Origin: Actinomycetota bacterium
GTDB lineage: Bacteria > Actinomycetota > Actinomycetes > S36-B12
Assembly: GCA_027729805.1 (NCBI GenBank)
Contig: JAQCEO010000009.1
Coordinates: 1-47,474, forward strand
DNA: 47,474 bases
Direction of reading: 5' to 3'
Part shown: positions 7,934 through 14,758 of the stretch, in pieces
Layout: every line of letters begins with the position of its first letter
Position numbering within the stretch: position 1 is the stretch's first letter
Made by a program: the position numbers and the translations under genes
Notes under the pieces: generated by a model
Databases searched by the model: none
Seen by the model: only the letters and a program-made list of their open reading frames with translations
Told to the model about the DNA's origin: nothing

Positions 7934-8713
7934 ATGGGTGAATACGTATCTTTGGAGTTGGCCGGCGAGGTTGCAAGCATTGTGTTGTCGCGCCCGCCGA
8001 TGAACGCTCTTTCGCGTCAGGTGCAGGAGGAATTACGCGCAGCGGCAGGTGAGGTAAGTGCGCGGCGCGATATCGGTGCGGTAGTGGTCTACGGAGGCCC
8101 CAAAGTCTTCGCGGCTGGGGCTGATATAAGAGAGATGGCCGAAATGGACTACCAGGAGATGGCCCTGCAGTCGCGTGATCTCCAGTCCGCGTTCACCGCT
8201 ATCGCCAATATCCCGGTGCCAACGATCGCTGCCGTAACCGGTTACGCCTTAGGTGGTGGTTGTGAGTTAGCGCTTTGCTGTGACCTGCGTGTAGCTGGCG
8301 ACAACGCGAAATTTGGTCAACCCGAAGTGTTATTGGGCATCATCCCTGGTGCCGGGGGCACCCAGCGGCTTTCACGTTTGATTGGGCCGGCACGAGCAAA
8401 AGACTTAATTTTCAGTGGCCGTTTCGTGGGGGCTGAGGAAGCCATGCGCATTGGCCTCGTCGACAAAGTGGTCGCACCCGATGATGTCTATACCGAGGCG
8501 ATCGCCTGGGCTGAGCAATTCGCCGCCGGTTCGAGTACCGCCTTGCGTGCAGCCAAGCGCGCCATCAACTTCGGGCTCGAAGTAGATCTCAATACCGGCC
8601 TGGAAATCGAGCGCGGGGAGTTCACCGGGCTGTTTGCGACCGACGACCGAATTATCGGTATGACATCGTTTATGGAGAACGGTCCGGGTAAGGCCAAGTT
8701 CACCGGCCGGTGA
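7934..8713 (+). CDS. Enoyl-CoA hydratase/isomerase family protein
   Basis: This 259-residue crotonase-fold enzyme likely hydrates 2-enoyl-CoA (for example crotonyl-CoA) to 3-hydroxyacyl-CoA. The oxyanion-hole block FAAGADIREM is present, as is GYALGGGCELAL with the first catalytic Glu. PEVLLGIIPGAGGTQRL carries the second Glu, which points to a genuine hydratase rather than an isomerase alone. The C-terminus FMENGPGKAKFTGR is typical of short-chain hydratases. With thiolase and Ccr nearby it fits crotonyl-CoA supply or use. Its TGA stop is the first codon of a 25-bp tandem repeat. Confidence 0.92.
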   Translation: MGEYVSLELAGEVASIVLSRPPMNALSRQVQEELRAAAGEVSARRDIGAVVVYGGPKVFAAGADIREMAEMDYQEMALQSRDLQSAFTAIANIPVPTIAAVTGYALGGGCELALCCDLRVAGDNAKFGQPEVLLGIIPGAGGTQRLSRLIGPARAKDLIFSGRFVGAEEAMRIGLVDKVVAPDDVYTEAIAWAEQFAAGSSTALRAAKRAINFGLEVDLNTGLEIERGEFTGLFATDDRIIGMTSFMENGPGKAKFTGR

Positions 8714-8762
8714 CCAAAATGGGCGACCCGGCCGGTGACCAAAATGGGCGACCCGGCCGGTG
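8703..8762. repeat. 25-bp tandem repeat (two copies) starting at a stop codon
   Basis: Two perfect 25-base copies lie at 8711-8735 and 8736-8760. A CCGGCCGG flank precedes the first copy, so the GC-rich palindrome CCGGCCGG appears three times, separated by two identical AT-containing spacers. The first copy begins exactly with the TGA stop of the enoyl-CoA hydratase gene. The self-complementary blocks could form competing hairpins at the end of the transcript. Slipped-strand duplication is the simplest origin. Confidence 0.9.
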
Positions 8763-8964
8763 AGGGGATAAACCCGGGCGTTCCCCGACCCAAAACTCGC
8801 CAACTTGTTGTCGGTGCCCCTTTTGTGTGGGCTCTTGGGCTGGTAGTGGCACCGGATGCTGTTTGAGCACCCGCCAAGTGGCGAGATGGCCGCGCCAACT
8901 GGTGCGGCCAAGGCGCGCAAAACCGGGGAAACGGGCTAGTGGCGTGGGCCAAAGGCTAGTGGGG

Positions 8965-8994
8965 TTGACGGATGTCAGGGGGCCGGTCTAGGTT
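8965..8994 (+). promoter_or_regulatory. Predicted SOS operon promoter
   Basis: TTGACG (8965-8970) and TAGGTT (8989-8994) are separated by 18 bases, a good match to a housekeeping sigma-70-type promoter. The expected start of transcription, near 9001, falls at the left edge of the LexA palindrome, so bound LexA would block initiation. The prediction rests on motif and spacing only. Confidence 0.55.
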
Positions 8995-8998
8995 ACTC

Positions 8999-9022
8999 TT
9001 ATTCGAACACCTGTTCGAATAA
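8999..9022. promoter_or_regulatory. LexA operator (SOS box)
   Basis: The core TCGAAC-N4-GTTCGA at 9003-9018 is a perfect match to the actinobacterial/Gram-positive LexA box. The palindrome extends to 12-base TTA... and ...TAA arms on each side of the ACCT centre, making it unusually complete. It sits just after the predicted -10 element and about 15 bases before the ATG of the HEPN gene, with the ribosome site GTGAGGAG between them. LexA should repress the HEPN-dnaE2-dinB operon until RecA is activated by DNA damage. Confidence 0.92.
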
Positions 9023-9036
9023 GTGAGGAGATTGCC

Positions 9037-9498
9037 ATGACAGCCCTGCTGGCACACCGGTTGCCTAATACCCCGGTGCCTAGTACCCCGGTGCCCGGTG
9101 CCGCCCTCGATTTGGTGATGTCAGCGCGCCGTAGTTTGACCGAGGCGATGTTGGCTGCAACCCCGAGTGCGCGCTATGCCGCTGCGCACCTTGCCGCCCT
9201 TCGGGCCGCTGCCGCCGTGCTCGCAGCTCGCAGCCAGCCGGCGGGCCGGCGCCGCCGCCAGGTGCGCAGTGTCTGGGTGGTGCTGCCCGAGGTGGCCGCC
9301 GAGTTCACCGAGTGGGCAATGTTCTTCGCGGCCGGTGCGCGCAAACGAGCTGTGGCTGAAGCCGGGGTTGCCTGTGTTAGTGAGCGTGAAGCCGATGACC
9401 TCCTCCGCGATGCCGACACTTTCCTAGCCCGGATCGTCGGGTCCTTGGGTTTACCCCACCAGCCGATGCTGCTGGCTGAAATCTTAAGTACCAACTAA
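9037..9498 (+). CDS. SAV_6107-type HEPN protein, first gene of SOS operon
   Basis: This small, Ala/Arg-rich helical protein of 153 residues resembles the actinobacterial SAV_6107 HEPN family. That assignment is from memory of its central blocks (SARYAAAHLAALRAAAAVLAAR and VWVVLPEVAAEFTEWAMFFA). Its function is not established. It contains R46-x4-H51, which matches the R-x4-6-H pattern of HEPN RNases, but its position in an early helix means it may be structural. A GAGGAG ribosome site lies before the ATG. The LexA box places it under damage control, upstream of two translesion polymerases, so an accessory role in damage tolerance is inferred. Both ends of the gene carry 15-bp tandem repeats. 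Confidence 0.75.
   Translation: MTALLAHRLPNTPVPSTPVPGAALDLVMSARRSLTEAMLAATPSARYAAAHLAALRAAAAVLAARSQPAGRRRRQVRSVWVVLPEVAAEFTEWAMFFAAGARKRAVAEAGVACVSEREADDLLRDADTFLARIVGSLGLPHQPMLLAEILSTN
9063..9092 (+). repeat. 15-bp tandem repeat inside the 5' end of the HEPN gene
   Basis: Two 15-base units (9063-9077 and 9078-9092, one mismatch) encode the N-terminal repeat NTPV-PSTPV-PG. The period is a multiple of three, so copy changes would keep the frame. It lies before the helical core and probably lengthens a flexible leader. Confidence 0.8.
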
Positions 9499-9540
9499 CC
9501 AATGCGTAACTAACCAAGGCGTACCTAACCAAGGCGTACC
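9493..9540 (+). repeat. 15-bp tandem repeat (about three copies) at the HEPN stop codon
   Basis: Units at 9493-9507, 9508-9522 and 9523-9537 differ by one or two bases. Each carries an in-frame TAA, so the gene ends in three successive stops 15 bases apart. It begins at the last sense codon. This is the same kind of placement as the repeat at the enoyl-CoA hydratase stop. Confidence 0.85.
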
Positions 9541-9566
9541 GGTTGCCCTCCCGGCAATCGGTCCAG

Positions 9567-9614
9567 CAGCGGTCGAAGCCCAGTTCCCCGTCTCCCACCG
9601 GGCTTCGACCGCTG
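9567..9614 (+). terminator. Strong hairpin between HEPN gene and dnaE2
   Basis: The arms CAGCGGTCGAAGCCC (9567-9581) and GGGCTTCGACCGCTG (9600-9614) are perfectly complementary over 15 bp, with an 18-base loop. AATTTTAG follows, a weak T-run. It could be a leaky intrinsic terminator or attenuator that lowers dnaE2 and dinB relative to the HEPN gene, or an RNA processing site. The hairpin is certain; the termination role is inferred. Confidence 0.5.
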
Positions 9615-9671
9615 AATTTTAGGCACTTCAACTGACGGTTAACGACTATCAACAAAAGGGCTTGATCACTG

Positions 9672-12600
9672 ATGGCACGTTCTGGCGCAGCGGCTTATGC
9701 ACATCTGCAGGTGGCATCGGGATTTTCGCTGCAATACGGCACCGCGACTCCACTAGCTTTGGCCCAGCACGCGGCTGAGCTGGGCCAGGACATCGTCGGT
9801 TTAACCGATCGCGATGGGGTTTATGGAGCAGTGCAGTGGGTGCAGGCCTGCCAGCGGGTTGGGATTAGCCCGGTTCTTGGGGTTGAGCTGGCAATTGAAA
9901 CCGACCACCTCGCCCCGGGGCATAAAAAGCGTCGCACCCCGGTACATGGTGGCAGCTGGATTGATGAGCAGCGTCCACGGGTAGTTTTCCTTGCGCGCGG
10001 TGCCCGCGGGTGGGCCGCACTTTGCCGGTTGATCTCCGCGGCCCACGCAGATCGTGGCACCCCTTGGTTGCCGTGGGCTGCGATACCCGCCAATTCAAAA
10101 GGAGTTGTTGCGCTACTTGGTCCCGACTCGGAGCTCGGACGGCATTTCACCAAGCACGGCCAAACCGGAGCCGCGGCCATAGTTGAGCCCTGGCGCGAAA
10201 TCTTCGGCCCGGATTTATTCATTGCCGTCGTTAACCACCAGCGAATGGGCAGACACCCATATTCGAAAGCCACAGCTGCTCGGATGCTGGGTTGGGCGGT
10301 GCAGGCGCAACTCACCCCGGTACTGACTAATGCGGTGCGTTATCTAAATCAAGAAGATGCGCGCGTAGCTGATGTCCTTGATGCCGCTCGCCAGTTGGTG
10401 CCACTGACTTCACGCCAGCTTGAACTCGGCAATGGCGCCGCCGCATTCAAGGGCACTTCTGCGATGGTCGCCATTGCCGAAGATATCGCCAGTGCTGCCG
10501 GGTGCAGCGCGGCGGAGCTTCTTAGAAACACCCGAACACTTGCCGAATCCGCCGTGATTGATGGGCGCAGAGATCTTGGTCTAGGCGAGGTTTATGTCCC
10601 AGAACGTGAAGTGCTGGTCGGGTCCGCAATTGAAAAGAGGACAGCGCAGGCCCAACTGCAGTGGCAGTGTGAACAGCAAATCCCAAAAAACTACACGGCT
10701 CGCGCTGAGCAGCGACTCGCACGAGATCGGCTTACTGATGAGCTTCATGTCATCGGGCACTTAGGTTTTGCCGGCTACTTTTTGACGGTCGCCGAGGTGG
10801 TCAACATGATCAAGGACAGAGGTGTTCGAGTCGCTGCTCGGGGTTCGGGTGCTGGCTGCCTTGTTAATCATCTGCTTGGTATTTCCGGTGTTGACCCGAT
10901 TCGATACGGGTTGTTGATGGAACGCTTCTTGTCGCCATTACGCCGGGTACTGCCAGATATTGATATCGACGTCGAATCGGTTAGGCGACTTGAGGTTTAT
11001 GACTTGATCTATGAACGTTTTGGCACTGCGCGGGTGGCCTGCGTGTCAATGATGGAGACGTATCGGGTGCGGCATGCGGTTCGTGATGTAGGTGCAGCGC
11101 TTGGGTTACCACCAACCGAAATTGACTCATTTGCGAAAGCGTTCCCGCATATTCGGGCCCGTGATGCGCGCGCGGCCTTACGCGATTTACCCGAGTTGCG
11201 GTTATCGGGGTTTGGCCGATTGGCCGCAAGTGGTGAATTGGACAGTTTCCTAGGCTTGGTTGAGGCCCTTGATGGTTTGCCACGTAATGTGGCAATGCAT
11301 CCCTGCGGGGTATTGCTGTCGGATATTTCACTTCTTGATCGCACCCCGGTTGAGCCAAGTGCCGCTGGGTATCCGATGAGTCAGTTCGATAAGGACGATG
11401 TCGAGGAGATGGGTCTACTTAAACTTGATGTACTTGGTGTACGTATGCAGTCGTCAATTTCCCATTCCATTGACGAAGTTGAGCGTACCTCTGGCAGACG
11501 CGTACTTCTTGATGCCGAGCCCCTTGATGACCTCGCGACCTTCGATCTAATCAGGTCAACGCGCACTCTTGGCTGCTTCCAAATCGAATCACCGGGGCAA
11601 CGTGAGTTAATAGGCAAGTTCGCTCCGGAGACATTTAGTGATCTCATCATCGACATCTCGTTATTTCGCCCTGGCCCGGTTAAATCCGACATGATCACGC
11701 CGTTCTTGCGGGCAAGGCATGGGTGGAGTCAGGCGCGCTATGTGCACCAAGACTTACGCCCGGCTCTGGCCGAGACCTACGGAGTCGTGGTCTTCCATGA
11801 ACAAGTACTCCGAGTGCTATCTGTGATGACCGGATGCTCACTTGCTGAAGCAGATGAAACCCGACGCAGCATGAACTCACCCGAAGGGCTTGATGATGTG
11901 CGCGCCTGGTTTTATCCAGCAGCCGTAACCCGTGGTTATCAGCTAACTGTTGTCGATGAAGTCTGGGAGATCCTGCGCGCATTTGCATCCTTTGGATTCT
12001 GTAAAGCGCATGCAGCAGCATTTGCGCTACCGACTTATCAGTCGGCTTGGCTAAAGACCCACTATCCGGCTGCTTTCTATGCCGGTGTCCTTACCCATGA
12101 TCCAGGTATGTATCCGAAGCGGTTGATTCTTGACGATGCGCGCAACCACGGGGTGGGGGTACTAGGTCTTGATATTAATGCTTCGTCCGATACCTACCGT
12201 GTTGAAGTTGATTCCATTAGGGTCCCGTTCACTGATGTCAAAGGCATCTCGGCGAGTGAATGTGCGGGCATTATCGCCGGCCAGCCGTACTCGTCGATTG
12301 CAGATGCCTGGCAGCGCGCCGGGATGTCACGTCCAACAATTGAACGCATTGTCGTTGCTGGAGCTTTTGATTCACTGTATGGTTTTGGAGCCGGGGAGCG
12401 GGCCAAGCGCCGAGGTCAGTTGACCCGGCGGGATTTATTGCTGCATATCGCCGATCTCGCGCAGCATGAGCGCACGCGTAGTGACTGCACAAGGCAACTT
12501 GCCCTAGACCTAGGCGATGATCCAATGCTGGTTGAGCCCTCCGGCCTACCGGAGATGACAACTACCGAGTTGGTACGGGCCGAACTTGAGGTGCTCCAGA

Positions 12601-13034
12601 TGGATGTTCGCTGCCATGTTATTGATTTTTACGCCCCGATGCTCAAATCCCTCGGCACCGTTTGGTCAAGAAATATTTTGTTATGCAGATCAGAGCAGGA
12701 AGTATTAGTGGCCGGAGTGAAAGTTGCGACCCAGACGCCACCGGTGCGATCTGGTCGACGAGTTATCTTTCTCACCCTTGACGACAGCACCGGGCCCCTA
12801 GATGCGACATTCTTTGAAGATGCCCAGGGTGCATATGCGGGCACCGTCTTTAGTTCGTGGCTGGTTTTGGTGCGTGGACACATTAGGCGGACCGGGCCGC
12901 GGGGGGTATCGATCCGGGCTACCGGATGCTGGAGTTTGGGTTTGATCCGAGAACACTGGCTCACTGGGGGATCAAGTGCAGTTTTCGAGCTGTTAGCGGC
13001 TGAGCCCGATGTTGGTGGAAGATGGTCGGCATGA
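9672..13034 (+). CDS. dnaE2: Error-prone DNA polymerase III alpha subunit DnaE2
   Basis: This 1120-residue C-family polymerase makes damage-induced translesion synthesis possible and causes mutation. The palm has PDIDID with Asp 429, 431 and 433, and a further catalytic Asp 586 in LLKLDVLG. ARGSGAGCLVNHLLGIS and FRPGPVKSDMITPFL follow the family. SFGFCKAHAAAFALPTYQSAWLK matches the fingers/C-terminal part, and an OB-fold region lies near the end. The N-terminal PHP domain looks decayed: HLQVAS (11-16) replaces H-x-H-x-S, and TDRDG (45-49) replaces TDHDG, so proofreading-type phosphoesterase activity is unlikely. Its length and operon position favour DnaE2 over replicative DnaE1. dinB overlaps its stop. 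Confidence 0.9.
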   Translation: MARSGAAAYAHLQVASGFSLQYGTATPLALAQHAAELGQDIVGLTDRDGVYGAVQWVQACQRVGISPVLGVELAIETDHLAPGHKKRRTPVHGGSWIDEQRPRVVFLARGARGWAALCRLISAAHADRGTPWLPWAAIPANSKGVVALLGPDSELGRHFTKHGQTGAAAIVEPWREIFGPDLFIAVVNHQRMGRHPYSKATAARMLGWAVQAQLTPVLTNAVRYLNQEDARVADVLDAARQLVPLTSRQLELGNGAAAFKGTSAMVAIAEDIASAAGCSAAELLRNTRTLAESAVIDGRRDLGLGEVYVPEREVLVGSAIEKRTAQAQLQWQCEQQIPKNYTARAEQRLARDRLTDELHVIGHLGFAGYFLTVAEVVNMIKDRGVRVAARGSGAGCLVNHLLGISGVDPIRYGLLMERFLSPLRRVLPDIDIDVESVRRLEVYDLIYERFGTARVACVSMMETYRVRHAVRDVGAALGLPPTEIDSFAKAFPHIRARDARAALRDLPELRLSGFGRLAASGELDSFLGLVEALDGLPRNVAMHPCGVLLSDISLLDRTPVEPSAAGYPMSQFDKDDVEEMGLLKLDVLGVRMQSSISHSIDEVERTSGRRVLLDAEPLDDLATFDLIRSTRTLGCFQIESPGQRELIGKFAPETFSDLIIDISLFRPGPVKSDMITPFLRARHGWSQARYVHQDLRPALAETYGVVVFHEQVLRVLSVMTGCSLAEADETRRSMNSPEGLDDVRAWFYPAAVTRGYQLTVVDEVWEILRAFASFGFCKAHAAAFALPTYQSAWLKTHYPAAFYAGVLTHDPGMYPKRLILDDARNHGVGVLGLDINASSDTYRVEVDSIRVPFTDVKGISASECAGIIAGQPYSSIADAWQRAGMSRPTIERIVVAGAFDSLYGFGAGERAKRRGQLTRRDLLLHIADLAQHERTRSDCTRQLALDLGDDPMLVEPSGLPEMTTTELVRAELEVLQMDVRCHVIDFYAPMLKSLGTVWSRNILLCRSEQEVLVAGVKVATQTPPVRSGRRVIFLTLDDSTGPLDATFFEDAQGAYAGTVFSSWLVLVRGHIRRTGPRGVSIRATGCWSLGLIREHWLTGGSSAVFELLAAEPDVGGRWSA

Positions 13035-14287
13035 GCCGCAACCAGGCGCGTCGATCAAGTGGCCTCGGGCAGCGAGGTCCGCGAAATCATGGTGACGATA
13101 CCGGCTGCACCATTTTGCATATAGATATGGACGCATTCTTCGCACTAGTTGAGTTGCGCACTAGGCCAGAACTCCGCGGCAAACCGGTCATAGTAGGTGG
13201 CGGTAGCCGAGGGGTGGTGTTGTCTGCAACTTATGAGGCTCGCGCCCTGGGGGTGCATTCGGCGATGCCCATGTCAAGGGCCCGGCGCCTTGCCCCGGAG
13301 GCGGTAGTTATCGCCCCAGACCACCGGCGTTACACCGAAGTAAGTCGCAATGTGATGTCCCTATTCAATTCGGTTACGCCATTGGTGGAACCACTTAGTC
13401 TTGATGAAGCATTCTTGGATATCTCCGGCACTATCAGGCGACTTGGCTCACCAATCGCAGTTGCCGAACTAATTCGCTCGCGGGTTGTTGACGAACAGGG
13501 CATTACCTGTTCCGTGGGCATTGCCACCACGAAGTTTGTAGCGAAAATTGCATCTGCTAGATGCAAACCAGATGGGGTCTTGGTGGTGCCGGCTGACCAA
13601 GTCCTCGCCTTCTTGCATCCATTGCCGGTCGCCGTCTTGTGGGGGGTTGGGGAGCGGACCGAGGAGCAGTTGACCCGGTTGGGTCTTTATACGGTTGGTG
13701 ATATCGCCAATATGCCGGTCGCTACTTTGCGGCGCGCCTTGGGGCAGGCGACAGGTACGCACCTGCATACGTTGGCGTGGGGGATTGACCCGCGCGCGGT
13801 CACACCACATGAGCCAGAAAAAAGCATTAGTGCCGAGGAGACTTTTAACCAAGATATTGATGACCCGGAGTTGATTTACGCGAAACTCCTGCACTTAGCC
13901 GATGAAGTAGGCACCCGGGTCCGCGGCGCCGGATACGTCACCCGCACTATTGCAATCAAAGTCCGATTTTCAGACTTCACCACCGTTTCCCGCTCCCGGA
14001 CCCTGACCAGTCCGACCGACGTCACCCAAGAGCTCTATGAAACCGCCCGGGCCCTTTACGACAGCTTGGGGCTGGAGCGGGTCCGGGTCCGGCTAGTGGG
14101 GGTGCGGGCGGAGGGGCTCCAGGTCGCCGAGGGGGCCGCCCAGCAGTTGGTTTTAGGGGCCCCAGCCCACGGCCGGCGCGAAGCGGAAATGGCTGTCGAC
14201 GCGCTGCGGGCCAGATTTGGGGCCGGTGCGGTACTTCCGGGCCGGCTGGTGGAGCGGGCTGACCCGGCAGATAATTCAACCGAATGA
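13031..14287 (+). CDS. dinB: Y-family DNA polymerase IV
   Basis: This 418-residue polymerase should extend past damaged bases and mismatched ends. Catalytic residues are intact: HIDMDAFFALVE gives Asp 32 and PLSLDEAFLDIS gives Asp 125/Glu 126. It is therefore an active DinB and not the catalytically dead ImuB usually paired with DnaE2. TCSVGIATTKFVAKIASA and the helix-hairpin-helix region GVGERTEEQLTRLGL are present. QQLVLGA near residue 370 resembles a beta-clamp binding site. The ATG at 13031 overlaps the dnaE2 stop as ATGA and has GGAAGA upstream; an ATG at 13022 is less well placed. It is the last gene of the predicted LexA operon. Confidence 0.93.
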   Translation: MSRNQARRSSGLGQRGPRNHGDDTGCTILHIDMDAFFALVELRTRPELRGKPVIVGGGSRGVVLSATYEARALGVHSAMPMSRARRLAPEAVVIAPDHRRYTEVSRNVMSLFNSVTPLVEPLSLDEAFLDISGTIRRLGSPIAVAELIRSRVVDEQGITCSVGIATTKFVAKIASARCKPDGVLVVPADQVLAFLHPLPVAVLWGVGERTEEQLTRLGLYTVGDIANMPVATLRRALGQATGTHLHTLAWGIDPRAVTPHEPEKSISAEETFNQDIDDPELIYAKLLHLADEVGTRVRGAGYVTRTIAIKVRFSDFTTVSRSRTLTSPTDVTQELYETARALYDSLGLERVRVRLVGVRAEGLQVAEGAAQQLVLGAPAHGRREAEMAVDALRARFGAGAVLPGRLVERADPADNSTE

Positions 14288-14371: not shown

Positions 14372-14758
14372 GTGCCACTTTCTGAGCATGAGCAGCGTCT
14401 CCTAGAGCAAATGGAGAAAGCCCTCTACGCCGAGGACCCTAAATTCGCCACCAGTTTGCGGTCGGCGAATAGCCGGGCCTCTCGTGGTCGCGCCGCCCTT
14501 GGCGTACTGGGCGTACTTGTTGGCATGGGCCTGATTTTGAGCGGCGTGGCAACCATGATGATCGCACTTGGCATCGCCGGGTTTGCGGTGATGCTCGCCA
14601 GCGCATTTATCGCTTATTCCGCATTCAGGGCACCGGCACCAGTGGTAGCCGAAAATGATGCGCCCGCCGCGCCGCGCAAGCAAAAGTCCTCGAACGGTTT
14701 CATGGATCGGATGGAAGATCGTTGGCGTAACCGCGGTGATGGCGCACCCGGGCAATAG
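14372..14758 (+). CDS. DUF3040 membrane protein
   Basis: This 128-residue actinobacterial protein begins PLSEHEQRLLEQMEKALYAEDPKFA, the DUF3040 signature, followed by two hydrophobic helices (about 47-65 and 67-88). The charged C-terminal tail (NGFMDRMEDRWRNRGD) should be cytoplasmic. The GTG start has a GAGGAG ribosome site. No biochemical function is known for the family. It is common near cell-division or repair genes in actinobacteria, and here it follows dinB after 84 bases. Confidence 0.88.
   Translation: MPLSEHEQRLLEQMEKALYAEDPKFATSLRSANSRASRGRAALGVLGVLVGMGLILSGVATMMIALGIAGFAVMLASAFIAYSAFRAPAPVVAENDAPAAPRKQKSSNGFMDRMEDRWRNRGDGAPGQ

Follow-up and report, generated by a model that had tools for sequence, protein, structure and literature searches.

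Organization of the locus

We examined a predicted SOS operon in the genome of an actinobacterium of the S36-B12 lineage, a 2.03-Mb assembly in 92 contigs that is 96% complete. The window, meaning the whole stretch of 47,474 nucleotides that was analyzed, is contig C22 of this genome. Reading rightward, an inverted repeat containing a LexA box is followed by genes for a HEPN protein of the SAV_6107 family, the error-prone polymerase DnaE2, the Y-family polymerase DinB (PolY), and a DUF3040 protein. An initial annotation of the DNA had placed the first three genes in one operon behind a perfect extended LexA box. The features are as follows:

8998..9023: LexA box (core 9003-9018, TCGAACACCTGTTCGA) within an inverted repeat whose 11-bp arms match perfectly
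9037..9498, + strand: HEPN_SAV_6107 (PF18726), first gene, 153 aa, assigned by profile match and AlphaFold2 model
9460..9474, + strand: QPMLL codons, HEPN residues 142-146, a QPxL motif in the C-terminal tail that resembles a sliding-clamp motif (putative function)
9672..13034, + strand: DnaE2, error-prone C-family polymerase grouping with Streptomyces-type DnaE2 (published as DnaE2B)
13031..14287, + strand: DinB (PolY), start overlapping the dnaE2 stop as ATGA; catalytic residues intact
14144..14158, + strand: QLVLG codons in DinB, clamp-motif-like
14174..14236, + strand: DinB tail similar to the N-terminal motif of RecA, RREAEMAVDALRARFGAGAVL
14372..14758, + strand: DUF3040 (SCO2097-family) neighbor gene, not claimed for the SOS unit

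The gene assignments of the initial annotation were borne out. The HEPN protein matched PF18726 with an E value of 1.8e-31 and 109 bits (cut-off 27.2). DinB matched the Y-family profile (IMS) with an E value of 7.6e-51 and retained the catalytic motifs HIDMDAFF and SLDEAF. The proposed coupling of dnaE2 and dinB was also confirmed, the DnaE2 stop and the DinB start overlapping in the ATGA at 13031-13034. The longest open reading frame for DinB begins at 13022; the starts MSRNQ and MSRSQ found in relatives fit 13031.

The LexA box in this genome

The box core lies 18 bp ahead of the HEPN gene, embedded in CTTATTCGAAC-ACCT-GTTCGAATAAG, and is the sole mismatch-free LexA box match in the window, in agreement with the perfect extended box described initially. 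The 14-mer core CGAACNNNNGTTCG was found without mismatch at only four places in the genome. One is the HEPN operon, the second precedes recA (L032), and the third lies immediately ahead of a conserved ruvC N-terminus (L035). When one mismatch was allowed the pattern became common (133 genome matches vs. 84 for the reversed pattern); three of the one-mismatch matches were grouped within approximately 85 bp upstream of lexA. Because the box stands ahead of recA, ruvC, and lexA, it is of the type used by the cell's own SOS genes. With both the box and a LexA gene present in the genome, the HEPN-DnaE2-DinB genes are probably a LexA-type, damage-induced SOS operon.

The fourth exact site (L034, 1501-1514) lies between sugar- and methyltransferase-type genes in polysaccharide-type surroundings, and probably arose by chance.

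The polymerases DnaE2 and DinB

The genome encodes two DnaE proteins and a single Y-family protein, which is the DinB of the window. A search for ImuA' (NCBIfam NF058630) matched RecA alone, at 31.8 bits vs. a cut-off of 65. No ImuB, the inactive Y-family protein of the usual mutasome, was found in the genome, the single IMS protein having intact catalytic residues. These genome-wide profile searches upheld the claim that an apparently active Y-family polymerase is paired here with DnaE2; no imuA'-imuB pair was found in the genome. Both catalytic patterns were passed by 43 of the 49 DinB proteins compared.

In a tree of 49 DnaE proteins made by a quick method, the window DnaE2 fell in a clade of 34 (support 100). 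This clade comprised the window protein, 28 other HEPN-linked DnaE2 proteins, three from relatives in which DnaE2 lies away from HEPN, and two of Streptomyces type (f9, g31), so assigned by a gene order at the HEPN locus that matches named Streptomyces loci. The other DnaE2 clade (support 100) contained eight ImuA'-linked proteins and two from f10/g32 genomes, which were taken as mycobacteria. Judged from these sequences, the split matches the published division into DnaE2B and DnaE2A (PMC12926913).

The DinB tail carries QLVLG, which is comparable to the clamp consensus QL(S/D)LF quoted in PMC9690074, and then a stretch resembling the RecA N terminus. A strict RecA-N-terminal pattern was matched by 35 of 49 DinB tails, including that of the window protein. 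According to PMC12926913, DnaE2B genomes lack imuA and imuB, and DnaE2B is often associated with PolY and RecA. Since DnaE2-PolY pairs without ImuA and ImuB were published in 2019 and 2026 (PMC6511836, PMC12926913), the pairing of DnaE2 with an active PolY is not new, and the novelty that the initial annotation saw in it largely falls away. The DnaE2 clade, the intact DinB, and the lack of an ImuA' match make a DnaE2-PolY-RecA module without ImuA and ImuB, a published kind, the best filing for these sequences.

The LexA box of HEPN across the class

To define the distribution of the box we used 78 HEPN loci from outside Streptomyces, in which the search for the box covered the 800 bp ahead of HEPN, or ahead of the DUF6504 gene where one precedes HEPN. 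They include 40 class stretches (L140-L179) chosen, before the boxes were inspected, from the 138 class genomes that matched PF18726, with approximately one or two per family, and six named loci counted beside other genomes' loci, so that species may overlap. Left out were three Streptomyces-type loci (L069, L070, and L074, with 2, 4, and 3 mismatches), the loci without HEPN (L181, L182, L188-L193), L077-L079, and 10 short loci. Nine of these 10 showed a box within 500 bp upstream, with no more than one mismatch; the tenth, L029, had none and contains masked or unknown bases.

A box with at most one mismatch was present in 76 of the 78 loci and was exact in 63; the remaining two (L073, L176) had two mismatches. 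The box was found in all 39 loci with DnaE2 downstream, all 13 with DinB only, all four with ImuA', and 20 of the 22 that had no polymerase gene in the stretch seen. "No polymerase gene" here means no tblastn match in the fetched stretch, which extended 2.8 kb downstream in L142 and, in the 21 others, 5.8 to 9.0 kb. The pattern was concentrated where a promoter would lie: 80 matches in 64.8 kb of upstream regions vs. 6 in the remaining 1,059 kb of these loci. Because the box is kept at HEPN even where no polymerase gene was found beside it, we take it to belong to HEPN. These sequences suggest that HEPN_SAV_6107 is itself under LexA control, as a widespread gene independent of the mutasome, which is new here; the initial annotation had missed both this class-wide box and the DUF6504 gene of the relatives.

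A Corynebacterium glutamicum gene may be a known instance. The C. glutamicum control genome holds a PF18726 protein, and the order HEPN-DUF3040-mraZ occurs in L073, L164, and L176. Taking C. glutamicum mraZ to be cg2378, as we presume, we infer from position that cg2381 is the HEPN gene of that species. According to PMC5055667, cg2381 is a conserved hypothetical gene of the LexA regulon that is induced by ciprofloxacin (M 3.86), a likeness to the damage-induced gene proposed here.

Three observations concern single loci or groups. In Streptomyces loci such as L204 and L216, a two-mismatch CCGAAC....GATCGA recurs near the HEPN start and is perhaps a decayed LexA box. In L177 a second exact LexA box lies 2294 bases past the DUF6504 start, ahead of methyltransferase and DinB genes. 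L231, which was counted among the 78, is titled a Spirochaetaceae metagenome-assembled genome; it has a DUF6504-HEPN-DnaE2 operon with an exact LexA box and is probably a misbinned actinobacterial contig.

Genes behind HEPN in relatives

In 30 loci from the same order, the gene next after HEPN was DnaE2 in 29 and DinB in one. HEPN and DnaE2 were adjacent in 45 of the 52 genomes that have both, and in 45 of 47 when genomes with ImuA' were excluded. The seven nonadjacent cases were five ImuA' genomes, a contig end (G037, in which L187 shows the DnaE2 start behind HEPN), and one true relocation (G028). Six of 59 relatives had an ImuA' score above cut-off; DnaE2 adjoins HEPN in none of the six (G045 has no HEPN), nor does any of them have a DUF6504 gene.

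The fullest form in the class is box-DUF6504-HEPN-DnaE2-methyltransferase-DinB-DUF3040 (e.g., L143, L145, L154, L158, L160, L168); elsewhere HEPN is followed by methyltransferase and DinB genes, or stands in a fetched stretch that shows none of the other genes. In many class families (L071, L075, L076, L143, and others) a methyltransferase gene separates DinB from DnaE2 (or HEPN); a tblastn search found none in the window or in 20 loci from its order (L080-L099). DUF3040 is encoded on the HEPN strand in 54 of the 78 loci, and mraZ was seen behind it in 5 of 54 stretches that were scanned. In four loci from two families (L072, L155, L161, L174), HEPN directly precedes ImuA'-ImuB-DnaE2. These four loci go against the suggestion of the initial annotation that HEPN could replace ImuA'.

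In the same four loci the methyltransferase gene follows ImuA'-ImuB-DnaE2, with DinB as well in L155, as if mutasomes had been exchanged behind one SOS leader gene. In a phylum sample of 197 genomes, 7 of the 20 with PF18726 matches lie outside the class, and their matches are weak; the window proteins had no match in those seven short loci or in three longer stretches.

DUF6504 was first noticed as a small gene between the box and HEPN in relatives. A profile made from it matched 33 of 59 relatives, and all nine members that were scanned matched Pfam DUF6504. Where DUF6504 and HEPN are both present they are adjacent, in 31 of 31 genomes. The profile matched none of 10 genomes of the window's genus, three of which are at least 95% complete, so the window operon looks like a reduced form. 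The DUF6504 model is a six-strand all-beta domain, and DUF6504 is a candidate for the stand-alone ImuB-C reported with DnaE2B and an active PolY. An hhalign comparison with ImuB-C gave a very weak score (probability 0.9%, E 0.06, with 9 and 7 sequences); larger sets of 27 and 8 sequences gave 1.9% and E 0.025, with the alignment reaching both C termini under a permissive setting only, and full-length ImuB (L072) had no match to the DUF6504 model at E 0.01. A literature search that covered few subscription papers found nothing on DUF6504 and nothing joining HEPN with dnaE2.

The HEPN protein: fold, catalytic site, and tail

The AlphaFold2 model of the HEPN protein (predicted local distance difference test score, 90.1) has a HEPN fold. 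In a fold search it reached Z scores of 14.8 to 2hsb, 13.2 to the HEPN domain of sacsin, and approximately 9 to HEPN toxins; helical bundles easily reach such scores, yet the top matches were HEPN domains or their relatives, in concordance with the Pfam match.

RNases of the HEPN class share an R-x4-6-H motif. The initial annotation had pointed to R46-x4-H51 as a possible site of action on RNA. The literal motif is present, in the second helix of the model, and position 46 is R in 47 of 49 relatives and K in 2. The catalytic reading of it did not hold. Position 51 is H in 39 relatives and Q, Y, or R in the other 10; column 51 is the sole alignment column with His in at least 10 of the 49 sequences. 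The solved HEPN toxins carry their catalytic residues, which the entry titles name as R102, H107, and Y109, in the final third of the chain. Toxin residues 5-140 align with model residues 19-140, which puts the catalytic place at about residues 100-110, as estimated from alignment end points, not residue by residue. No His is conserved near residues 100-110 in the 49 relatives, and a conserved R-x4-6-H at the catalytic position was thus lacking. In the table of the 2013 HEPN survey, the SAV_6107 entry reads "No" where other families have "Mostly conserved" (PMC3710099). On this evidence an RNase function is unlikely, and action through R46 and H51 was rejected, the toxin site being elsewhere in the chain and H51 not being conserved.

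Beyond the last long helix the model continues into a tail of lower confidence, in which Q-P-x-L keeps one fixed place (LG-L-P-H-Q-P-x-L-P). Among distinct tails from outside Streptomyces, Qxx[LMIF] was present in 41 of 75 (shuffle mean 9.1, maximum 17), and among Streptomyces tails in 65 of 78 (mean 15.6, maximum 27). The Q was at a single fixed position in 39 of 74 tails from outside Streptomyces. For these counts identical tails were counted once and 10 of 176 HEPN proteins had no anchor, leaving 75 + 78 tails, or 76 + 78 with a longer tail. The clamp motif of MutL is QPLLIP. The bacterial consensus is QL(S/D)LF, possibly with much variability, according to PMC9690074. The QPxLP tail suggests that HEPN is tethered to the sliding clamp. 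A literature search found no published function for PF18726.

Discussion

We lean toward the reading that the locus is an SOS operon in which a DnaE2B-DinB module is led by HEPN, a noncatalytic and possibly clamp-tethered accessory, and consider it somewhat better than an even prospect. LexA bound to the 9003-9018 box would repress the operon. After damage, RecA filaments would promote LexA cleavage, and HEPN, DnaE2, and DinB would be produced together. DnaE2 and the active DinB would then act as a translesion module standing in for ImuA'-ImuB-DnaE2 in this genome, probably with RecA on the DinB tail and with the sliding clamp. HEPN would be an accessory of the damage response with a HEPN fold, not a subunit specific to the module; held to the clamp by QPxLP, it may help to control how polymerases or the fork gain access.

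Several results weigh against this reading. PF18726 was not found in 59 of the 197 class genomes (present in 138), nor HEPN in 6 of the 59 relatives. Two of these six, G043 and G055 (L181, L182), have DUF6504-DnaE2-DinB operons without HEPN, in which the DnaE2 match starts nearly at the DUF6504 end, so HEPN is dispensable there. In Streptomyces, 74 named HEPN loci yielded no exact box and only 2 with a single mismatch. The window DinB tail, when compared with this genome's own RecA, gave a pairwise score that 72 of 2000 shuffles reached, which is weak taken alone. The HEPN tail motif is absent from 34 of the 75 tails from outside Streptomyces, and QPxLP has P at position 2, unlike the classic QL(S/D)LF. 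Tails and boxes are also shared by descent among related sequences, so that the counts overstate independence.

The initial annotation had proposed that HEPN replaces ImuA' as a bridge between DnaE2 and DinB. That none of the six relatives with ImuA' has DnaE2 beside HEPN fits this proposal. It fares poorly where HEPN directly precedes an entire ImuA'-ImuB-DnaE2 set, as in the four loci described above, where no polymerase gene was found beside HEPN (22 of 78 loci), and where the two DUF6504-DnaE2-DinB operons do without HEPN. Because HEPN both leads ImuA' loci and is missing from these operons, it does not substitute for ImuA', and the module does not strictly depend on it; we regard the bridge as very improbable. 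We give still less credence to an SOS-induced RNase acting through R46-x4-H51. Most HEPN toxin domains do have RNase activity (PMC3710099), and the literal motif with its nearly invariant R46 would suit one; the variable H51, the lack of a conserved His where the toxin residues map, and the "No" of the survey table speak to the contrary.

Two further explanations would leave HEPN outside the translesion module. HEPN could be carried along as a passenger in a syntenic block lying ahead of the division cluster, with the LexA box serving the polymerase genes only. The frequent DUF3040 gene on the HEPN strand, with mraZ behind it in some loci, points this way, as do the Streptomyces that retain HEPN there without a good box; since HEPN keeps the box in 20 of the 22 loci whose downstream 2.8 to 9.0 kb showed no polymerase gene, we consider a passenger quite unlikely. 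Alternatively, HEPN could serve as a checkpoint factor of the SOS response, slowing replication or division, and be no translesion accessory. Solo HEPN copies with a LexA box are consistent with such a role, as are the nearby DUF3040 gene of the SCO2097 "morphological protein" family, the mraZ gene of some loci, and the precedent of SocB, a small protein that blocks the clamp (PMC9690074). HEPN often adjoins polymerase genes, however, and the fold search was topped by HEPN domains and not by any known inhibitor; a checkpoint role seems unlikely, though less so than a passenger.

The DnaE2B-PolY-(ImuB-C)-RecA modules, e.g., that of Tessaracoccus lapidicaptus (PMC12926913, PMC6511836), share with the locus a non-ImuA' DnaE2 clade, an apparently active PolY with a possibly RecA-NT-like tail, and a genome in which imuA and imuB were not found; the all-beta DUF6504, a candidate ImuB-C, occurs in relatives of the window. 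The locus differs by its HEPN leader, the term "HEPN" having no occurrence in the main text of PMC12926913, and in that no DUF6504 was found in the 10 genomes of the genus. The Streptomyces dnaE2-dinP operon (S. venezuelae, PMC9380542; DinB2-DnaE2 of S. coelicolor, PMC6511836) has the same DnaE2 clade, LexA control, and a PolY beside DnaE2; in contrast, DinB2, which is the PolY of S. coelicolor, has been reported as inactive (PMC6511836, PMC12926913), and the Streptomyces HEPN loci have the order HEPN-methyltransferase-DUF3040 (72 of 74 named loci) and rarely a box. The Mycobacterium ImuA'-ImuB-DnaE2 mutasome is likewise an SOS-controlled DnaE2 module, and modules of that composition lie behind the same HEPN gene in the four loci above; it differs in having ImuA' and ImuB, neither of which was detected in the window genome, and a DnaE2 of another clade. 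HEPN-MNT toxins (7ae2, 8xeh, 5yep) have the same fold (Z approximately 9), whereas the window HEPN lacks the conserved catalytic His, and no nucleotidyltransferase was found among the nine window proteins scanned.

A wider and more tentative suggestion, which we hold to be possible and rather less than probable, is that HEPN_SAV_6107 is an unrecognized core SOS protein of actinobacteria: a clamp-tethered, noncatalytic bundle that manages the damaged fork in general and is under LexA control whichever module adjoins it (DnaE2B-DinB, ImuA'-ImuB-DnaE2, DinB alone, or none). Damage-induced mutagenesis aids bacterial adaptation and drug resistance, and LexA, RecA, and the polymerase modules are the parts of it known in actinobacteria. 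A gene that keeps its LexA box across many families while polymerases are swapped or lost is a candidate for a missing part of the damage response, and might explain what a Pfam family with no function found in print does.

Two minor points concern the origin and surroundings of the operon. A mobile origin of HEPN was unsupported, as tblastn at E 1e-3 gave no match to the protein among 72,556 plasmid and 50,697 phage records. Two tandem repeats lie nearby, one upstream of the box at 8703-8763 (25 bp x 2.4, 100% match) and one in the gap between HEPN and DnaE2 at 9495-9540 (15 bp x 3.1, 93%).

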